Of a DNA stretch of 32,500 nucleotides, positions 2,090 through 29,468 are shown one piece after another. The stretch is from a bacterium. GTDB lineage: Bacteria > Cyanobacteriota > Sericytochromatia > S15B-MN24 > VGJW01. The stretch's first letter is position 1. Each line of letters opens with the position of its first letter. The translations under genes and the position numbers were made by a program. The stretch is from NCBI GenBank assembly GCA_021781555.1, contig JAJXWQ010000032.1, forward strand, positions 1 to 32,500, given 5' to 3'. The notes under the pieces were generated by a model. That model ran no database searches and was not told where the DNA came from. It saw nothing but the letters and a program-made list of their open reading frames with translations.

Positions 2090-2596
2090 ATGGCGACTGG
2101 AGGCCACTTGGAAGGGGACAAGGCACACAACATCCTGACCCGGCTGGTCGTGACCGTCGAACTCCAGGCCGGCCTGGACGCCGCCCTGGAGGCCCTGGTC
2201 CGTGACGACGGCGCCCGCTCCGCGGCGGTGGTCGAGCGCAGCGGCCTGCTGCTGGCCAGTGCGGGCCAGGGACCCGTGACGGAGTCCGCCCTGGCCGCTC
2301 TGGTCGCCGGGGTCTTCAAGAGCTTGACCGCCCTCTCCGAGCTCATGGGGGAGGGTGAGGTCTCGACCTTCCAGCAGGCCGGGCCCAGCAGTTACACTGT
2401 CTTCAATCTGCTGGATTCGGGCGATGCGCTCGTGGCTTCGTTCCTGCCCAGTAGGCCCGAGCGGCAAGTAGGCGGTGCGCTCAATCTGGCGATCGCCAAG
2501 ATTTCTCCGCTTCTCAAGAAGGCACGCAGCGGCGGGGCCTCGCCCGGCCTCAAGCTCGATGCGGGCAGCATCGACAGCATGCTGGGGAACCTCTAG
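2090..2596 (+). CDS. Roadblock/LC7 (MglB-like) domain protein
   Basis: A 168-aa cytoplasmic protein with one roadblock/LC7 fold at about residues 25-140: a helix (LDAALEALVRDDGARSAAVV), a strand with GLLLAS, a central helix (ALAALVAGVFKSLTALSELM) and paired strands (SSYTVFNLLDSGDALVASFL). Family members dimerise and often regulate small Ras-like GTPases (MglA/MglB) or act as scaffolds. No MglA-type GTPase is present here. The ATG has a good site, GAGGA, just upstream. The next gene, a diguanylate cyclase, starts about 100 bases downstream on the same strand, so the two are probably cotranscribed. Partner and function are not visible from sequence. Confidence 0.85.
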   Translation: MATGGHLEGDKAHNILTRLVVTVELQAGLDAALEALVRDDGARSAAVVERSGLLLASAGQGPVTESALAALVAGVFKSLTALSELMGEGEVSTFQQAGPSSYTVFNLLDSGDALVASFLPSRPERQVGGALNLAIAKISPLLKKARSGGASPGLKLDAGSIDSMLGNL

Positions 2597-2693
2597 GGGA
2601 GGCATCCGGTCTTGCTGTAAAGAGGCACCGCGAGGGAGGTACTTGCTGAGCTCGTCGTCCGGCCGAGCGGGAGGGCCGGTTCGGGAACGAGCG

Positions 2694-4676
2694 ATGTTTG
2701 ATTCGCAAATGATACATCTATCCGAGGTTCTCACGGGTCAGGTCGTCGGCCCGCTGGCCCGACTCTGGAGCGAGGCCGACGATGAGGCCGACTTTTGCCG
2801 CCAGGCCGCCCGCGTCTGGTGTGATGCGCTGGGCGTCACGGGGGCTTTCGTGGCCTACCGGTCGGAGCTTTCGCAGCCGTGGTGCGCCTTTTCGGCCGAC
2901 GACTCGCGCGAGCCCCGGCTTTCCGAGCTGGTCGCAGGCTTTGTCGATGGTTCGACGGCGGTGCTGGCCGACGGGGCCGAGACCTGGTACCCGGCGCCGC
3001 TCACCGTTCCCCGTCCGCTGGGCGCCGTCCTGTTCGTCCCGGTGCCGCTGGGTGCCGAGGCGCAGGCGGCGCTCAACATCATGGCGGCCGGTCTGTCCGC
3101 CCATGCGCTGGGGCGGCGCGCGATGCGAGCCGATGCGATGGTGGGGCAGGTCGCCCGCAAGCTACAGGCCCTCCAGCTCCTGACCTTGAACGTCAACACG
3201 ACCTACGACCTCGGGGGCCTTTCGCAGGGGCTTTGCAACATCGTGGCGCAGGCCATGGGGATCGAGGTCGCCTTCCTGTACCACCGCGAGGCGGGTGGCC
3301 TGCGTATCGTCGAGGATCTCGAGGTCTTCTCCGCGGCGGGAGGATCCTGGCGCGACGTGGTGGCGCAGGGAGCGGCCAAGGCCGGCGATTCCCTGCTGCC
3401 CCTGGCCCAGGCCGGGTTCCTGGCCGAGGTCCTGTCGTCGGGCCGGGCCAAGGCGTTCGACGACGTGAGCGCCGCCGTGGCTTCCATTCCGCAGCTCGCG
3501 GGTCGCAAGCTGGCAGCACTGGCGGCCGCTCCCCTGGTGACCCAGCGCGAGGAGCTCGGGGTCCTGGTCGTGGGCAGTCTGCGCCCCCGCTACTTCTCTT
3601 CGCTCGACCTCGACACCCTGGAAGAATTCGCGCAGGCGGCTACCGGCGCCCTCTTGATCTCGCGGCTCTATTCCACGGCTCGCGAGGAAGGCGAGCGGGC
3701 GGGGACCCTGGTGGCGCAGCTCCGCGAGCTGACGCGCGCCACCCACGAGGTCGGCAAGACGCTCGACATTCACCGCGCCTGCCAGGAGCTGGTCGAGCAG
3801 CTGCCGCGCTTCATGAGTCCCATCCACTGGGTCGACGTGTTCCTCTGCAAGGGCGACGACTGGTCCTTTGCCACCGGGTCCAGCTCCAACTTCCCGAGTC
3901 CGCCCGACCAGTGGCTCTACTACCTGGACAAGACCGGCTATCCGCCTTCGGTCGAGCTGCCGCGGGAGGCCCTGGCGGGGACTCCCTTCGAGCAGGCTGG
4001 CAACGTGCTGCTCTTCCCGATGCGGAAGCAGCACGAGTGGCTGGGGCTGGTCGTGGTCGCGACGGAATCCGCGACCCAGACCCTGGGGCGCGACATGGTC
4101 GAGACCCTGGTCACGCACACGGCTTCGGCCCTGTCCAACGCCATCTCCTGGGAGCGTGAGCACGAGCGCTCGATCACCGATGGCCTGACCGGGGTCTACA
4201 ACCGGCGCTTCTTCAACCAGCGGCTGGTCGAAGAGCACGAGAAGGGCGAGCGTTACCGGCGGCCCTTCGGCCTCATCCTGCTCGACATCGATCACTTCAA
4301 GCGTTGCAACGACCTCCTCGGCCACCCGGCCGGCGATATCGTGCTCAAGGAGATGGCCACCCTCTTGCGCGACCACACCCGCAAGGTCGATATCGTGGCT
4401 CGCTACGGCGGAGAGGAGTTCGCCGTCATCCTCCCCGAGGCCACGGTCGAGGGGACGCAGAAGACCGCCGAGAAGCTCCGGCGGGTGATCGAGCGTCACG
4501 TCTTCAAGGACCAGGACCAGCTTCCGGGTGGCAACGTCACGGCCAGCCTGGGCTTCGCCTGCCATCCGCTGCATGGTCGCACGCCGGAACAGCTGATCGC
4601 GGTGGCTGACCAGGCCCTGTATTCGGCCAAGCAGGCCGGGCGCGACCGGGTGGGCATCCCGTCCCTGCCGGATTGA
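2694..4676 (+). CDS. GAF-domain diguanylate cyclase (GGDEF)
   Basis: Makes cyclic di-GMP from two GTP. From ATG 2694 it has 660 residues: divergent GAF-like sensor segments over roughly residues 20-480 (at least two, perhaps three), then a C-terminal GGDEF domain from the linker SITDGLTGVYNRRFF (about 493) onward. The active-site motif is GGEEF (572-576), an active variant, and the RxxD inhibitory site is present as RKVD (563-566), so product feedback is expected. No transmembrane segment is evident, so the protein is probably cytosolic. The start is uncertain: a strong GGAGG at 2635-2639 lies only 3 bases before an in-frame TTG (2643) and 6 before CTG (2646); ATG 2694 has only a weak site. 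It follows the roadblock gene, and a PilZ protein, a possible c-di-GMP receptor, lies 1.4 kb away on the other strand. Confidence 0.93.
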   Translation: MFDSQMIHLSEVLTGQVVGPLARLWSEADDEADFCRQAARVWCDALGVTGAFVAYRSELSQPWCAFSADDSREPRLSELVAGFVDGSTAVLADGAETWYPAPLTVPRPLGAVLFVPVPLGAEAQAALNIMAAGLSAHALGRRAMRADAMVGQVARKLQALQLLTLNVNTTYDLGGLSQGLCNIVAQAMGIEVAFLYHREAGGLRIVEDLEVFSAAGGSWRDVVAQGAAKAGDSLLPLAQAGFLAEVLSSGRAKAFDDVSAAVASIPQLAGRKLAALAAAPLVTQREELGVLVVGSLRPRYFSSLDLDTLEEFAQAATGALLISRLYSTAREEGERAGTLVAQLRELTRATHEVGKTLDIHRACQELVEQLPRFMSPIHWVDVFLCKGDDWSFATGSSSNFPSPPDQWLYYLDKTGYPPSVELPREALAGTPFEQAGNVLLFPMRKQHEWLGLVVVATESATQTLGRDMVETLVTHTASALSNAISWEREHERSITDGLTGVYNRRFFNQRLVEEHEKGERYRRPFGLILLDIDHFKRCNDLLGHPAGDIVLKEMATLLRDHTRKVDIVARYGGEEFAVILPEATVEGTQKTAEKLRRVIERHVFKDQDQLPGGNVTASLGFACHPLHGRTPEQLIAVADQALYSAKQAGRDRVGIPSLPD

Positions 4677-4792
4677 GCTGCAGGTGGGGGTCTCCCTCGC
4701 TGCGCTCGGGCAGCAGCTTGAGAGGGGCCGCTGCCCCTCTCAAACTCGCCCTGCTGCGGGCAAGCTGCTGCGCGGCTCGGCTGGCGAGGTGG
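4674..4792 (+). repeat. Family-2 structured intergenic repeat, copy A
   Basis: Begins with the TGA stop of the GGDEF gene inside the shared word TGAGCTG, then GGGGGT, CTCCCTCGC, GCTCGGGCAG, a perfect hairpin (11-bp arms at 4718-4728 and 4733-4743, loop CGCT), then GGGCAAGCTGCTGCG and GCTCGGC-N3-CGAGGTGG. The same ordered words occur in copy B (22456-22582). A competing 10-bp pairing, GCAGCAGCTT (4710-4719) with AAGCTGCTGC (4762-4771), exists only in this copy. Confidence 0.75.
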
Positions 4793-4906
4793 CGTGGTTT
4801 CAAGCTGATGGGTGCCATCTGCGCGCCGGCTGGCGGCGCCGGGGCGGCAGCTTGGGGGCCAGGTCCCGGGAAGGACCAGGCAAAGACCCACAGAATCGCG
4901 CGCTCG

Positions 4907-8621: not shown

Positions 8622-10172
8622 TCACTTGGCGAACTCGGTGCTGCGGGTCTCCCGGATGACGGTCACCTTGATCATGCCCGGATATTCCATCTCGGTCTCG
8701 ATCCTGCGGGCCACGTCACGAGCGATCTTGGCCGCCATCACGTCGTCGACCTGGTCCGGCGCCACCATGACCCGCACCTCGCGGCCGGCCTGGACCGCGA
8801 AGACGCGCTCGATGCCGGTGAACGAGCGGGCGATCTCCTCGATCTTCTCGAGGCGCTTGATGTAGACATCGATGTTCTCCCGCCGGGCGCCCGGGCGTGC
8901 CGCCGAGATGCCGTCGGAAAGAATGACGAGGCAGGCCTCGATCGAGGCGGGTTCGACGTCGTAATGGTGAGCGCGGATGGCGTGGACGACGTCGGGCCGT
9001 TCGCCGTACTTCTGGGCCAGGTCGGCACCGAGGACGGCGTGGGCGCCCTCGTGCTCGTGACTGATGGCCTTTCCGAGATCGTGGAACAGGGCGGCCCGCT
9101 TGGCCACCGCCACGTTGGCGCCGATCTCGGCGGCGACGGACGCGCAGACGTGTGCGACCTCCTTGGTGTGGGCAAGGACGTTCTGGCCGTAGCTGGTCCG
9201 GTACCTCAAGCGACCGAGCGTGCGGACGATCTCGGCGTGGGCGCCGGCGATCCCGAGCTCCAGGAGCGCTTTCTCGCCCTCGGCCTTGATCGTCTCCTCG
9301 ACCTCGTTGCGGGCGCGGTCGACTTGCTCCTCGATGCGGGCAGGATGGATCCGGCCGTCGGCGACCAGGCGCTCGATGGCGATGCGAGCGACCTCGCGGC
9401 GCACCGGATCGAAGCTCGACAGGATGATCGCCTCGGGCGTGTCGTCGATGATGAGGTCGATCCCGGTGGCGGTCTCGAGGGCGCGGATGTTGCGCCCCTC
9501 GCGCCCGATGATCCGCCCTTTCATGTCGTCGCTCGGAAGCTGGACGACCGAGACCGTCCGCTCGACGCAGTGATCGACCGCGGTGCGCTGGATGGCCGTC
9601 GTGAGGATCTCGCGGGCGCGGCGATCCGCCTGTTCCTTGGTTTCTTGCTCGACGCGCTTGATCTTGGCGGCCGCCTCGCGGGAAAGCTCCTCGTCGAGGC
9701 GATCGAAGAGCTGGGCCCTGGCGACCTCCCGGGTGAGGCCCGCGACACGCTCGAGCTCGGCGGCGTGCTTGTCCCGCAGGGACGCCGTCTCGTCGTGGAG
9801 CGTGGCGACGCGAGCTTCGCTGACCTGGATGTCGGCGGCCCTGCGGTCCAGGCTCTCGGCTTTCTGATCGAGGAAGGTCTCGCGCTGGTCGAGGCGACGT
9901 TCCCGGGCGCGGAGATCCTCGAGCTGCTCCTTGAGCAGGCCCTCGTGCTCTACCTTCTGGCGATCGGCTTCTTCCTTGGCCGCCAGGAGCGCCGACTTGC
10001 GCGCGTTTTCGATCTCGACCTCGGCCTTGGCCCTGGCCTCGGCGGCCTCCCGGATGGCGGCGGCGACCTGGGCCTCGGTCTTGGAGCGCCGGACCTGGGT
10101 GTAGACGAACAGGCTGATCGCCAGGACCAGCAGGGCTGCGCCGAATGTGAAGATCAGGGTGGATCCGCTCAT
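8622..10172 (-). CDS. rny: Ribonuclease Y
   Basis: Membrane-anchored endoribonuclease that initiates mRNA decay. It has 516 aa from ATG 10172, the usual family length. Order: an N-terminal transmembrane anchor (STLIFTFGAALLVLAISLFVYT), a long charged coiled coil (about 30-200), a KH domain with GRIIGREGRNIR (about 219-230), and an HD domain with FHDLGK (His-Asp at 364-365) and the downstream LVILSDGISAARPGARR and YPGMIKVTVIRE motifs. The ribosome site is weak. It starts 14 bases after the recA stop, so the two are cotranscribed. The anchor and coiled coil place it at the inner face of the membrane. Confidence 0.98.
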   Translation of the reverse strand: MSGSTLIFTFGAALLVLAISLFVYTQVRRSKTEAQVAAAIREAAEARAKAEVEIENARKSALLAAKEEADRQKVEHEGLLKEQLEDLRARERRLDQRETFLDQKAESLDRRAADIQVSEARVATLHDETASLRDKHAAELERVAGLTREVARAQLFDRLDEELSREAAAKIKRVEQETKEQADRRAREILTTAIQRTAVDHCVERTVSVVQLPSDDMKGRIIGREGRNIRALETATGIDLIIDDTPEAIILSSFDPVRREVARIAIERLVADGRIHPARIEEQVDRARNEVEETIKAEGEKALLELGIAGAHAEIVRTLGRLRYRTSYGQNVLAHTKEVAHVCASVAAEIGANVAVAKRAALFHDLGKAISHEHEGAHAVLGADLAQKYGERPDVVHAIRAHHYDVEPASIEACLVILSDGISAARPGARRENIDVYIKRLEKIEEIARSFTGIERVFAVQAGREVRVMVAPDQVDDVMAAKIARDVARRIETEMEYPGMIKVTVIRETRSTEFAK

Positions 10173-15851: not shown

Positions 15852-15957
15852 CTAGCGTGCTCCCGGTTTGAATGGATCGAGCCCGATGAGTCAAACGGGG
15901 CCCGGTTGCGCAGCGAAGCGACCGCGCAGAGGGCCCCGTTCAAACTGCAAAAGGCCT
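15852..15957. repeat. Family-1 structured repeat, full copy 1
   Basis: After CTAG-N comes a 101-bp element (15857-15957) identical base for base to 23423-23523. Internal pairing: AACGGGGCCC with GGGCCCCGTT (10 bp), enclosing CGGTTGC/GCGACCG (7 bp with one G-U). An outer GTTTGAA near the left end can pair with TTCAAAC near the right end, or its first six bases with the nearer TCAAAC. It lies between two minus-strand genes. Confidence 0.9.
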
Positions 15958-16081
15958 AGAGGGACTATCCGGAAGGACTGGTGCCGGAAAGGATATTTTT
16001 AAACGTTCACGAAATCTTCTCCAAGAACTCGGTCGCGTGCCAGCTCGCTTTCTCGCGGCGCTCGATCGCGGGGAGACTACC

Positions 16082-16612
16082 TCAGGGTAGATCCCGCGGA
16101 TCGCTCTTGTGGGCGATCTCGGTCTGCTCGGGAGCCAGGGTGACGCGGAAGAGCGGGGACTCTTTCTCGCCGGGTTCGGCCACCCCGACGCGGTACCGGT
16201 ACACCATCTGCCGGCCGAGCCATGCCGCGTAGCCGAGAAGAACGTTGCCCGCCACCGTCAGGCCGAAGGTGAGGTTGAACATCCCCCCCGCCCCGGAGCG
16301 GTACACGATCATCAAGACGATGTCCGCCACCAGGGTTGCGAGCGCCAGGCCGTTGAGCGCCATGTGGGCGATACCCAGGCGCGGTACCAGGAGGCGTCCG
16401 GTCGTCGCGTAGTCCCAGAGCCCGGGACCGATCGCCACGAACATGCCGACCACCCCGAAGATGAGGCTCCAGAACGTCATCCCCCACCAGAACGGCACGC
16501 GGGTGGCGAGATAGATGCAGTCCGCGATCAGGGCGACGAGGGCCGAGCCGATCGGGTAGTGGACCAGGGCGGGGTGCAAGGGATGCCTCGCCACGACCAT
16601 TCCGCTCTTCAT
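16082..16612 (-). CDS. DUF2231-family membrane protein
   Basis: A 176-aa integral membrane protein. The N-terminal HPLHPALVHYPIG is the signature of the DUF2231 (YwiC/cytochrome-b561-like) family, with histidines positioned as in possible haem-binding relatives. Four hydrophobic segments follow: ALVALIADCIYLATRV, FWSLIFGVVGMFVAIGPGLWDY, MALNGLALATLVADIVLMIVY and LTFGLTVAGNVLLGYAAWLG, then a polar C-terminal tail of about 40 residues. The ATG at 16612 is preceded by GAGGAG eight bases upstream. No function is established for the family. Neighbours (thioesterase upstream, lipoprotein downstream) give no pathway. The 124 bases between its stop and repeat copy 1 hold nothing I can identify. Confidence 0.85.
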   Translation of the reverse strand: MKSGMVVARHPLHPALVHYPIGSALVALIADCIYLATRVPFWWGMTFWSLIFGVVGMFVAIGPGLWDYATTGRLLVPRLGIAHMALNGLALATLVADIVLMIVYRSGAGGMFNLTFGLTVAGNVLLGYAAWLGRQMVYRYRVGVAEPGEKESPLFRVTLAPEQTEIAHKSDPRDLP

Positions 16613-16657
16613 CGCGGTCGCTCCTCGGCCGATGGCCGTTCTCCAACCTTACGGGCG

Positions 16658-16679
16658 CCTCTCGACTCGGGTCGAGAGG
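16658..16679. other. Perfect 9-bp hairpin upstream of DUF2231 gene
   Basis: CCTCTCGAC-TCGG-GTCGAGAGG. It lies 45 bases before the DUF2231 start and about 120 after the thioesterase stop. There is no U-tract, so this could be a 5'-leader hairpin or a weak terminator of the upstream gene. Confidence 0.55.
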
Positions 16680-16753
16680 GGTTCCCTCGAATGTGATCCG
16701 GGAAGCGCATGATGTCTTCGTGCGATCGCTCCCAACTTGCTTGCGTGCCAGCG

Positions 16754-16806
16754 GGAGTGGGCCCGAGGATCCAATCGGGGACCCGTTCAAACTGCAAAAG
16801 GCCTAG
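16754..16806. repeat. Family-1 repeat, shortened copy 3
   Basis: The right-end 23 bases, CCCGTTCAAACTG followed by CAAAAGGCCT, are identical to the full copies. The left part (GGGCCCGAGGATCCAATCGGGG) is a diverged form lacking the central hairpin. The right border, CCTAG, contains the minus-strand TAG stop (16803-16805) of the thioesterase gene. Confidence 0.75.
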
Positions 16807-20897: not shown

Positions 20898-22090
20898 AGC
20901 GACTCGCAGCCATCCCGCTGACCGCCGGGGCGGCGGCCACCGTGGCCGTTCTGATGCTGGCCGGTCCGGCCCACGCTGCCGCCTCGTTGTGGGGCTACTC
21001 CGGCCTGGCTTTGATGCCCACCGGAGCGGTGCTGCAGCCGGGACACTACCGGATCTCGGGTGAACCCACGATCCTGGATTCGGACTTCCTGTGCCCGCTT
21101 TCCCTGTCGGCTGGGATCGTGCGGGGGCTCGAGGTGACGCTCGACTACCCGGGCCGCTGGGGGGCCGGTCCGGCCCTGACGGGCAGCGCCATCTACCAGC
21201 TCGTCGGCTCGACGCCCGAAAACCCGACCCGGGTTGCCATCGGACTCACCAATCTTGCGCTCGGGACGCTGACCGTGCCCGGTTCGACCAATCCCAGCTT
21301 CGTGTCGCCCAACAACCTCTTCATGGTGGTCTCCCGCGACGTCGATGTTCCCATCTCCGGCCAGCTGCGCAACATCGCGAGCCTTCACCTGGGATTCACG
21401 GGCGCTGCGCTGTCCTGGCCGTTCGTGAACCTGGATTCTCGCGTCATGGCCGGTCTCGAGCTGCCGGTCTCCGATGCCCTGGATCTCTATGGCGAGTACT
21501 TCGGACCTTCGTCGCAGTCCGGTCAGTTCTTCGACGTCGGCCTGCGCCTATCTGCCATGCCGGGGCTTGACCTGGACGTTGCCAGCATCGGGGAGCCGGG
21601 GCTATCGCCGACCGAGCGGGCGTATGCGCTGGGGGTGGCCTACAGCGGCCAGTGGCCGCTCTTCGGGAGGCCAGCCAGGAGCGTCGCCGGCGTTCCCGGT
21701 GCGCTCGCGGACTCCCTGGCGGCCCGGCGCCGTCTTGCGAGGCCCGAGACCGTCGCCGGGCTGGCTCCGCCGCCAGCTCCGCTGGCGACCTTGTACGGAC
21801 GGATCACCGACTCCACCGGGGCTCCGCTGGCCGGCGCCGACGTGGGCGTGGTCGAACTGGATCGCTGGAGCCAGGCGACCGGGATCGGCGACTACTTCGT
21901 CGACTCGATCCCGAAGGGGGCCTACACCCTGGCCGTCCGGAATGGCGCGCAGGGCATCGTCGCCACGCGTTCGATCCAGATCGGGGCCACCGGGCCGATC
22001 GAGGAGGATGTCCGCGTTCCGACCCCCGGCACGCTGGCGGAAGGCTCCCACCCGGCACAGGGGCCGGACCTTCAGGTCAAGGGTTCGTGA
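20894..22090 (+). CDS. Exported barrel-like protein with carboxypeptidase-regulatory domain
   Basis: A 398-aa protein. The signal peptide MKRLAAIPLTAGAAATVAVL ends near GPAHAA. Residues about 30-270 are strand-rich with alternating hydrophobics (ASLWGYSGLALMPTGAVL, GHYRISGEPTI, IVRGLEVTLDYPGRWG, FVNLDSRVMAGLELPVSDALDLYGEYF, QFFDVGLRLSAM), resembling YjbH-like or other outer-membrane barrels. Residues about 310-375 form a CarboxypepD_reg-like Ig fold (LYGRITDSTGAPLAGADVGV, GIGDYFVDSIPKGAYTLAVRN). ATG 20894 has GGAGG six bases upstream. It overlaps both neighbours by four bases or fewer, so all three are likely made together. Function unknown; a surface or export role is inferred. Confidence 0.75.
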   Translation: MKRLAAIPLTAGAAATVAVLMLAGPAHAAASLWGYSGLALMPTGAVLQPGHYRISGEPTILDSDFLCPLSLSAGIVRGLEVTLDYPGRWGAGPALTGSAIYQLVGSTPENPTRVAIGLTNLALGTLTVPGSTNPSFVSPNNLFMVVSRDVDVPISGQLRNIASLHLGFTGAALSWPFVNLDSRVMAGLELPVSDALDLYGEYFGPSSQSGQFFDVGLRLSAMPGLDLDVASIGEPGLSPTERAYALGVAYSGQWPLFGRPARSVAGVPGALADSLAARRRLARPETVAGLAPPPAPLATLYGRITDSTGAPLAGADVGVVELDRWSQATGIGDYFVDSIPKGAYTLAVRNGAQGIVATRSIQIGATGPIEEDVRVPTPGTLAEGSHPAQGPDLQVKGS

Positions 22091-22458
22091 CGCGCCGGCC
22101 CGTCTCGACACCGGTACGAGCTCTGGCGGCGTCCAGCTACATCTTTCCCGTCGCCATTTTCCTGCTGGCCGTGCCCACCTACCGGCAGGTCCGGCTCATC
22201 CGGGTCCACGCCCTGGTCTCGGTCATCCTGGGCCTGGTCGTGTTTGCGGCCGTGGCCGTGCTCGGGCACATCACGGTCTTCGCCCTTTCGTTGTTCGTGG
22301 GGCTGCTCTTGACCCTGGCCATCGCCGGCTACTTCGGTGTGGCCGGCTGGGGTGCTTTCAGGGCCTATCAGGGCCGCGAGCCTCCGATTCCTGCCCTGGT
22401 CGATCTGGCCCGCCGGATCGACAAGCTGTCGAACCGTCCACGTTCTCGCCGGTCGTGA
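22087..22458 (+). CDS. Small integral membrane protein (123 aa)
   Basis: Not recognised beyond being a membrane protein. GTG 22087 overlaps the previous stop (GTGA), implying coupled translation. Three hydrophobic segments: ALAASSYIFPVAIFLLAVP, VHALVSVILGLVVFAAVAVL and VFALSLFVGLLLTLAIAGYFG, then a basic cytoplasmic tail (RRIDKLSNRPRSRRS). The pattern is like DUF4870-type proteins. It is the third gene of the 20466-22458 unit. Its stop codon is the first codon of family-2 repeat copy B. Confidence 0.7.
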   Translation: MTRRPVSTPVRALAASSYIFPVAIFLLAVPTYRQVRLIRVHALVSVILGLVVFAAVAVLGHITVFALSLFVGLLLTLAIAGYFGVAGWGAFRAYQGREPPIPALVDLARRIDKLSNRPRSRRS

Positions 22459-22582
22459 GCTGAGGGGGGGCGGGGGTTTTCTCCCTCGCAGGGCTCGGGC
22501 AGTGACTCGAGGGAACCCGCCGGTTCCCTCGAACTCTCTCCGGCAGCGGGCAAGCTGCTGCGTCGCTCGGCCTTCGAGGTGG
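22456..22582 (+). repeat. Family-2 structured intergenic repeat, copy B
   Basis: Shares with copy A, in the same order, TGAGCTG, GGGGGT, CTCCCTCGC, GCTCGGGCAG, CGGGCAAGCTGCTGCG and GCTCGGC-N3-CGAGGTGG. Its central hairpin, TCGAGGGAACC (22507-22517) - CGCC - GGTTCCCTCGA (22522-22532), is a perfect 11-bp stem of different sequence from copy A. Confidence 0.75.
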
Positions 22583-22640
22583 GGAGCGTTTGAGTCGGGA
22601 GGATGCTGTCGGCGGGATGGCTGGCGGCGGTATGGCTGGC

Positions 22641-22746: not shown

Positions 22747-23421
22747 ATGGCAGCTGTGACCGTACGGTTCGGGAAGCTCGCGCTGGCCCTGGCCCTGGCC
22801 CTGGCCGGCTGTGCGCGCCACCCGGTGCCATTCGTGGCGCTGTCGGGGACCCTCACGCTGCCCGTGCCCGAGTCGCTGGCCCTGGATGGCGCGTCGATCT
22901 CGATCGTCTCGCTGTCCGGAACCCTGGCTCGCCTCGGCGCGACGACTGCCCGCCAGACCCTTGCCGCGACGCCCGCCCAGCCCGCCAAGGGTAGCTATGC
23001 GCTCGAGGTCGACGCCAGCTCGCTGCCCGCCGCCCCCACCTTCTTTCTCGTGCAGCTCGACAACCCCGAGCCGGCTCCCTGGAACGGGCCGATTCTCGAG
23101 GCCGCCGTCGCGCTTTCCCGGCCACCCGGGGCCGGGCCAGACCTTGGTGGCGTCGAGGTCGACCTCGATGCCACCAGCAGCGCGGCCGCGATGGCCTTGC
23201 AGTACCGGCAAGGGCTCTCGGTTGCCCTGGATCCCGCGCGCATCGCTCCGGTCGCCCTCGCCTCCTACCTGGGCGGCAAGACGAGCGTGGCCTTCGATTT
23301 CGCGGCGGCCTTCGTCAGGTACACGACGGGGCAGACCCGCACCGCGCCCTGCGATTCGGCTGCCATCGCCCGCGAGGCCAGCCAGGCCCTGCCCACGGAT
23401 CTGGCCACGGTGTCACGCTAG
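22747..23421 (+). CDS. Putative lipoprotein (224 aa)
   Basis: The N-terminus VRFGKLALALALALAGC carries a perfect lipobox (LAGC, Cys at about 22), so the protein is lipid-anchored. The mature part has a strand-rich segment resembling an Ig or carbohydrate-type fold (PFVALSGTLTLPVPESL, ASISIVSLSGTLARLG, YALEVDASSLPAAPTFFLVQLD), then helical AAMALQYRQGLSVALDP and SYLGGKTSVAFDFAAAFVRY. No family is recognised. ATG 22747 has a weak ribosome site within a GC hairpin. Further upstream in-frame starts run through repeat sequence and are rejected. A full family-1 repeat begins immediately after its TAG stop. Confidence 0.7.
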   Translation: MAAVTVRFGKLALALALALAGCARHPVPFVALSGTLTLPVPESLALDGASISIVSLSGTLARLGATTARQTLAATPAQPAKGSYALEVDASSLPAAPTFFLVQLDNPEPAPWNGPILEAAVALSRPPGAGPDLGGVEVDLDATSSAAAMALQYRQGLSVALDPARIAPVALASYLGGKTSVAFDFAAAFVRYTTGQTRTAPCDSAAIAREASQALPTDLATVSR

Positions 23422-23523
23422 AGTGCTCCCGGTTTGAATGGATCGAGCCCGATGAGTCAAACGGGGCCCGGTTGCGCAGCGAAGCGACCGCGCAGAGGGC
23501 CCCGTTCAAACTGCAAAAGGCCT
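23418..23523. repeat. Family-1 structured repeat, full copy 2
   Basis: Bases 23423-23523 are identical over all 101 positions to 15857-15957. The preceding CTAG-A contains the TAG stop of the upstream lipoprotein. The element fills the gap between two convergent lipoprotein genes, so its hairpins could act as a two-way terminator or an mRNA 3' stabiliser. Confidence 0.9.
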
Positions 23524-28226: not shown

Positions 28227-28256
28227 CCGCGATCTCGATCGCTTTCGCCTGGCAAG

Positions 28257-28308
28257 GCTCGGGTCCAGGGAGTCAAACGGGCCCTGGCTGTACAGCGCAG
28301 CGCCCGCG
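28257..28308. repeat. Family-1 repeat, partial copy before trpS
   Basis: GGCTCGGGTCC-AGGGAGTCAAACGGG-CCCTGG-CAGCGCAGCG-CCCGCG follows the left and middle parts of the full copies (GAGCCCGATGAGTCAAACGGGGCCCGG, GCGCAGCGAAGCGACCGCG) with several changes. The right-hand arm is missing. It lies in the 210-base gap between the B12 operon and trpS. Confidence 0.5.
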
Positions 28309-29385: not shown

Positions 29386-29435
29386 GGTGCTTCCGGTTTG
29401 AAGGGAGCGGGCCCGAGGCATCAGGCGGGGGCCCA
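29382..29435. repeat. Family-1 repeat, left-half copy after trpS
   Basis: CTAG-G-GTGCTTCCGGTTTGAA then GGGAGCGGGCCCGAGGCATCAGGCGGGGGCCC follows the left half of the full copies at most positions. The CTAG contains the trpS stop codon. The right half is absent; the coding sequence of the next gene starts 34 bases later. Confidence 0.65.
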
Positions 29436-29468
29436 CAGGAGCGTGTCGGGGCGAGCGGACGGGGCTGC

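Follow-up and report, generated by a model that had tools for sequence, protein, structure and literature searches.

Hairpin repeats at the gene edges of a bacterial genus and a possible hand-over of translation at start codons

Two hairpin elements, copies A and B, in the window (the whole stretch of 32,500 nucleotides analysed here) belong to a repeat family that is dispersed in two species and inserted at gene edges. The best explanation, which taken jointly as a whole we consider fairly likely, is that they represent a non-autonomous mobile repeat at genus level, ~140–190 bp long, that contains several hairpins with stems exchangeable between copies. Two subfamilies can be told apart: S1, which includes A, B and most copies in the genome holding the window, and S2. 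For S2, we lean slightly towards an adaptation to landing on start codons, in which expression of the displaced gene is restored by a new start, an SD-like tract and a mini-ORF that is in frame and coupled to the gene, all of them kept through several complete hairpin changes; in one species, such replacement of the start codon may have affected more than 100 genes. Compact bacterial genomes offer transposons little room. If our reading is right, elements that insert at start codons and bring the translational hand-over with them would represent a distinct mode of life for mobile DNA in operons, and termination-reinitiation at natural junctions would become directly testable.

Copy A (forward strand, 4674–4862, right end approximate) starts at the stop codon TGA (4674–4676) of a GGDEF-domain gene (2475–4676); its right end was set at the point where the match to the flank in the sister species (TCCCGGGAAGG...) returns. 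Copy B (forward strand, 22456–22630, right end approximate) lies directly after the stop codon TGA (22456–22458) of the ORF at 21652–22458, and is missing from the ortholog in the sister species, where 81 bp stand in place of 240 bp. An earlier, sequence-only reading had drawn both elements too short, since A reaches ~4862 and B ~22630, and had described their central hairpins exactly as we find them on the forward strand: in A, TTGAGAGGGGC-CGCT-GCCCCTCTCAA (4718–4743; arms 4718–4728 and 4733–4743), and in B, TCGAGGGAACC-CGCC-GGTTCCCTCGA (22507–22532; arms 22507–22517 and 22522–22532), each a perfect 11-bp stem. Downstream on the same strand, both copies carry the word GGGCAAGCTGCTGCG (4758–4772 in A, 22548–22562 in B), which is conserved across the family. 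The genome holding the window (G000; 3.8 Mb, 181 contigs) has 27 exact copies of this 3' word and ~20 more with one mismatch; A and B are therefore members of a real repeat family. This family has ~50 copies in G000 and upwards of 100 in a sister species of the same genus (G001; GenBank JAJYIO01, isolate DBS2-1.bin124, a fragmented draft MAG). Among 98 relatives, G001 alone has many copies, with 181 matches to an extended word at ≤1 mismatch, and the 20-base core word, at ≤1 mismatch, occurs in no other member of the taxonomic family. Judging by which relatives these are, the genus probably belongs to the Cyanobacteria/Sericytochromatia part of the tree. In another genus of the same taxonomic family, the genome G002 holds five weak BLAST matches (contigs C91, C171, C22, C277 and C31) that cover the first 28–59 bases of S2, at its 5' end, and may mark a related element whose stems differ; the motif is also modestly over-represented there (30 versus 12 in the control).

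In both genomes the central stem falls into discrete alleles (TTGAGAGGGGC, TCGAGGGAACC, TCGAGAGGACC, TTGCAGGGGGC and TGCGGGG), nearly all of them paired end to end. Across 12 distinct stem sequences, pairing holds in 94.7% of cells and the covariation score is 0.556, versus 0.24 in shuffles and ≤0.21 in slid controls; these 12 rows group into few alleles, so that the cell counts greatly overstate the number of independent events. Stem pairs have changed on both sides in 6 of 11 positions and on one side only in none, and therefore whole-hairpin replacement fits better than stepwise RNA covariation. Furthermore, the flank 3' of the stem co-varies with the allele, reading ACTCGCCCTG or ACTCTCTCCGG. 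At the site orthologous to that of A, after the same gene, G000 has TTGAGAGGGGC and G001 has TCGAGGGAACC (locus L306); either in-place exchange or independent insertion could account for this difference, because the stop codons differ too (TGA and TAG). Mixed-arm stems also occur (L092 and L126/L049), so stem pairing is not obligatory. The natural reading of these alignments would be that whole hairpins have been exchanged among copies.

Thus, of two accounts offered by the sequence-only reading, that of the stem as an exchangeable module is well supported by the discrete alleles with their co-varying 3' flanks, by the different alleles at one orthologous site and by the mixed-arm copies. The other, that compensatory change strongly indicates selection of the folded structure, is more weakly supported: the hairpins are maintained, whether as DNA (a transposition substrate) or as RNA, but one-sided intermediates are absent and the differences involve whole hairpins. 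That reading had also named further copies with disrupted stems as evidence against it, and the mixed-arm copies do have imperfect stems. We therefore urge caution: compensatory change in repeat families may reflect whole-hairpin exchange and not covariation at the RNA level. Some of the apparent stem exchange, together with the mixed-arm and tandem copies, might instead be artefacts of assembling repeats in draft MAGs. Copies of GGGCAAGCTGCTGCG in G000 are indeed often at contig ends, and many contigs end inside copies, as is expected because repeats break assemblies; yet in both genomes the alleles are seen in copies that are complete, lie in contig interiors and have unique flanks, and empty and occupied sites align cleanly, so that we consider this explanation very improbable.

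We also weighed whether the family is a regulatory RNA (an attenuator or a 3'-end stabiliser) with a stem that is selected as RNA, in line with the selected fold suggested by the first reading. Predicted folds are stable: z lies between −3.3 and −3.5 for A, for B and for the 3' part of type b, and is −1.7 in the complete type-a element. Stem pairs change on both sides, and an A.C mismatch that is fixed in the commonest allele becomes G.U when the reverse (mRNA) strand is read, which hints weakly at the reverse strand as the RNA strand of S2. Against this stand the lack of one-sided (G.U) intermediates in the 12 stem rows, the whole-hairpin replacement and the mixed-arm copies; furthermore, the host genes are unrelated, and the presence or absence of copies varies at orthologous sites. 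An Rfam search of the window returned no match, which does not support a known structured RNA, and no T run of an intrinsic terminator follows the stems, that of A being followed by ACTCGCCC and that of B by ACTCTCTCC. On balance, we judge a regulatory RNA to be decidedly unlikely.

The two subfamilies of the mobile repeat occupy different edges of genes. S1 lies in sense orientation immediately 3' of stop codons: its clearly coding upstream flanks are same-strand genes in all cases but one, and the stop codon is usually 9–22 nt ahead of the first hairpin. G000 has almost no S2, with L023/C155 as the one clear copy; in G001 S2 is abundant, its end motif having 137 matches versus 3 in the control, and its lengths between fixed ends cluster at 141, 147, 150 and 153 bp. 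The target of S2 is a start codon that reads RTGAG, for example those of rny, gmd and a motB-like gene. One empty target lies in the window: ATGAG (reverse strand, 10168–10172), at the start codon of rny, the RNase Y gene that lies downstream of recA. At the same recA-rny site, G001 carries a pair of fused S2 units placed exactly at the rny start, and rny begins at a GTG supplied by the element (empty junction in G000, CGAGATGAGCGGATCC; occupied junction in G001, CGAAATGAG|TTACCC...GGGGAGTTTCTTG|TGAGCGGTTCC). Such fusions, with 99-bp tandem units, were seen at L080, L144, L132 and L145, and the intact ones form one longer in-frame ORF.

In three clean comparisons of empty and occupied sites (recA-rny, L142 and L109), TGAG flanks S2 on both sides; at a fourth, L115, the empty version now reads TGAA. 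Empty and occupied sites were matched at ~90% identity. From these clean sites with TGAG on both sides, it follows that the old start codon has become the start of a mini-ORF, and that the gene restarts at the RTG of the element. Products that begin at the new RTG include gmd, a MotB-type protein, an SDR, a decarboxylase and RNase Y, and profile matches start close to it: position 1 of the profile falls at residue 3 for gmd, position 2 at residue 3 for the MotB-type protein, and position 2 at residue 5 for the SDR. Downstream flanks continue in the frame of the new start in 11 of the 15 that are clearly coding (P ~3e-7 even with 14% of TGAG sites as start codons, and with copies treated as independent).

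Another observation to emerge from these junctions is that the old start codon opens a frame of 47–51 codons that runs along the S2 reverse strand through all of the hairpins. The open reverse-strand frame is present in most S2 copies; its TGA stop overlaps or abuts the new, element-supplied RTG, behind an SD-like purine tract that S2 carries. The peptide reads MSxPPSAPTLSNETPPAERGYAAACPQRG-, followed by a middle part (VVCGGQGPLQVTA, ASLRGAKGPSQATA or WGHAGAGTDPAVTA) and by several tails (PKGSF, GAAGEESFL, RAQRGSFL). Rows with negative spans were left out as mis-parses; of the 31 remaining copies with both boundaries, 27 keep the frame and 24 have their stop at the junction, and a purine precedes the new TGAG in 24/24 intact junctions. 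The frequent length variants of S2 keep the frame: 12, 18 or 21 nt in the first hairpin, 34 or 37 nt in the central stem region, and the 99-bp tandem units; the S1 counterparts measure 17/18 nt and 35 nt. Purifying selection on the peptide was not detected (30 synonymous changes versus 29.8 expected, 65 nonsynonymous versus 63), the mini-ORF has no stops but just 2.2 were expected, and single-copy indels in S2 are out of frame as often as chance predicts. The case for selection on the frame thus consists of the junction geometry and of some four in-frame variants that are widespread (P ~0.01).

We propose that ribosomes would start at the old start codon and translate the mini-ORF through the hairpins, which would thereby be opened; they would then terminate at the TGA of the mini-ORF and re-initiate on the displaced gene at the new RTG. 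Insertions at start codons might in this way be tolerated, while most of those elsewhere in coding DNA would be lost, and hairpin variants that broke the frame would not have spread. We hold this coupling model, drawn from sequence comparison, to be moderately likely and no firmer than that, because the peptide is neutral, the rare indels are often out of frame, and the case rests on the widespread variants and on the junction geometry. We infer that the family is a non-autonomous hairpin transposon that is tolerated at start codons by termination-reinitiation.

In a simpler account, these are ordinary MITE- or REP-like repeats that prefer to insert at TGAG or CTAG; selection spares the copies at gene edges, and the reverse frame is a GC-rich by-product with no translational role. 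This fits the unconserved peptide, the small number of stops in GC-rich DNA and the resemblance of S1 to known post-stop repeats, and incidental ORFs are common in MITEs (PMC2229807, PMC2759123). It leaves aside the in-frame lengths of the widespread variants, the exact placement on start codons, and the overlap of stop and start with its purine before every intact new TGAG; we therefore rate it as somewhat unlikely.

Several known systems resemble the family in part. Rickettsia palindromic elements (RPE) and the ORF-carrying repeats ERIC/RU-1, RU-2 and RU-3 of enterobacteria are, like S2, ~100–170 bp long, hairpin-forming and dispersed; they contain an open frame and are tolerated within genes or beside them (PMC10969869, PMC2229807, PMC2759123). 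The open frame through the element is found in S2 as well; however, RPE and RU repeats are described as in-frame fusions with genes, whereas in most copies S2 is its own ORF between genes, running as a separate mini-ORF from the old start to a hand-over at the new one, and is not inserted in frame inside host proteins. One copy, at L101, may extend a gene in frame. Exchangeable stems are a feature of the present family that is not stated for RPE or RU. The REP/BIME repeats with their RAYT, for which we took membership criteria from PMC3733652 and PMC2817692, likewise have many palindromic copies near stop codons in mosaic and tandem arrangements; in contrast, the present repeats are much longer, and no transposase gene is flanked by them. 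The unpaired words beside the central hairpin, read by eye, are GTGAC and AACTC, and no GTAG or CGTC tag was noticed there. In integrons, ORF-11 of attI1 and the short ORFs of attC are cases in which a recombination-site hairpin carries a short ORF that eases the hairpin barrier by termination-reinitiation (PMC8876359). S2 is alike in principle and differs in being dispersed through the genome at host start codons, with no integron context claimed. The nearest known kinds are thus the ORF-carrying palindromic repeats (RPE, RU) and REP/BIME; in the literature covered, which is incomplete, we found no description, for these or any other element, of start-codon insertion with a coupled mini-ORF and hand-over.

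Miniature elements derived from IS200/IS605 (PATE-like) end in hairpins and are flanked by a fixed short word. S2 shares both, its word at the insertion edge being TGAG; it differs in that no autonomous parent, that is, no longer element with the same ends, was found in the part of the G001 contigs searched. A transposase might act in trans on the hairpins as its substrate; more tentatively, this could be a Y1 (IS200/IS605-type) protein, which is a candidate mobiliser only. Each genome has a single Y1 gene, at syntenic positions (L058, 1456–1884 in G000; L063 in G001). This gene is under purifying selection (dN/dS ~0.16, similar to rny), and its alignment to the ISDra2 transposase shows that the tyrosine is kept and that Q replaces the first H of HUH (QLH/QVH); the single-copy transposase has possibly been domesticated. 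No S1 or S2 copy stands beside the Y1 gene in G000 or G001, which rules it out as an obvious mobiliser flanked by these repeats. We also rejected its assignment as a RAYT: the protein scores 29.4 bits against REP_Tyr_transpos, under the cutoff of 80, versus 63.2 against transpos_IS200 (cutoff 55).

We also observed a second repeat family (family 1) of ~107 bp, TTTGAATGG...CAAACGGG...TTCAAACTGCAAAAGGCC. The window contains two copies of it, at 15853–15959 (flanked by CTAG on both sides) and 23419–23522, and relics at 16752–16806, 28241–28308 and 29389–29456. Another copy lies directly upstream of the Y1 gene in G000 (L058, ~1265–1330) and is absent at the syntenic position in G001 (L063). Finally, 3' of the stop codon of one and the same gene (L277, ~16500–16700; end of L079), G000 has a family-1 repeat followed by S1 and G001 has S2: this is a case of repeated insertion at one stop codon.
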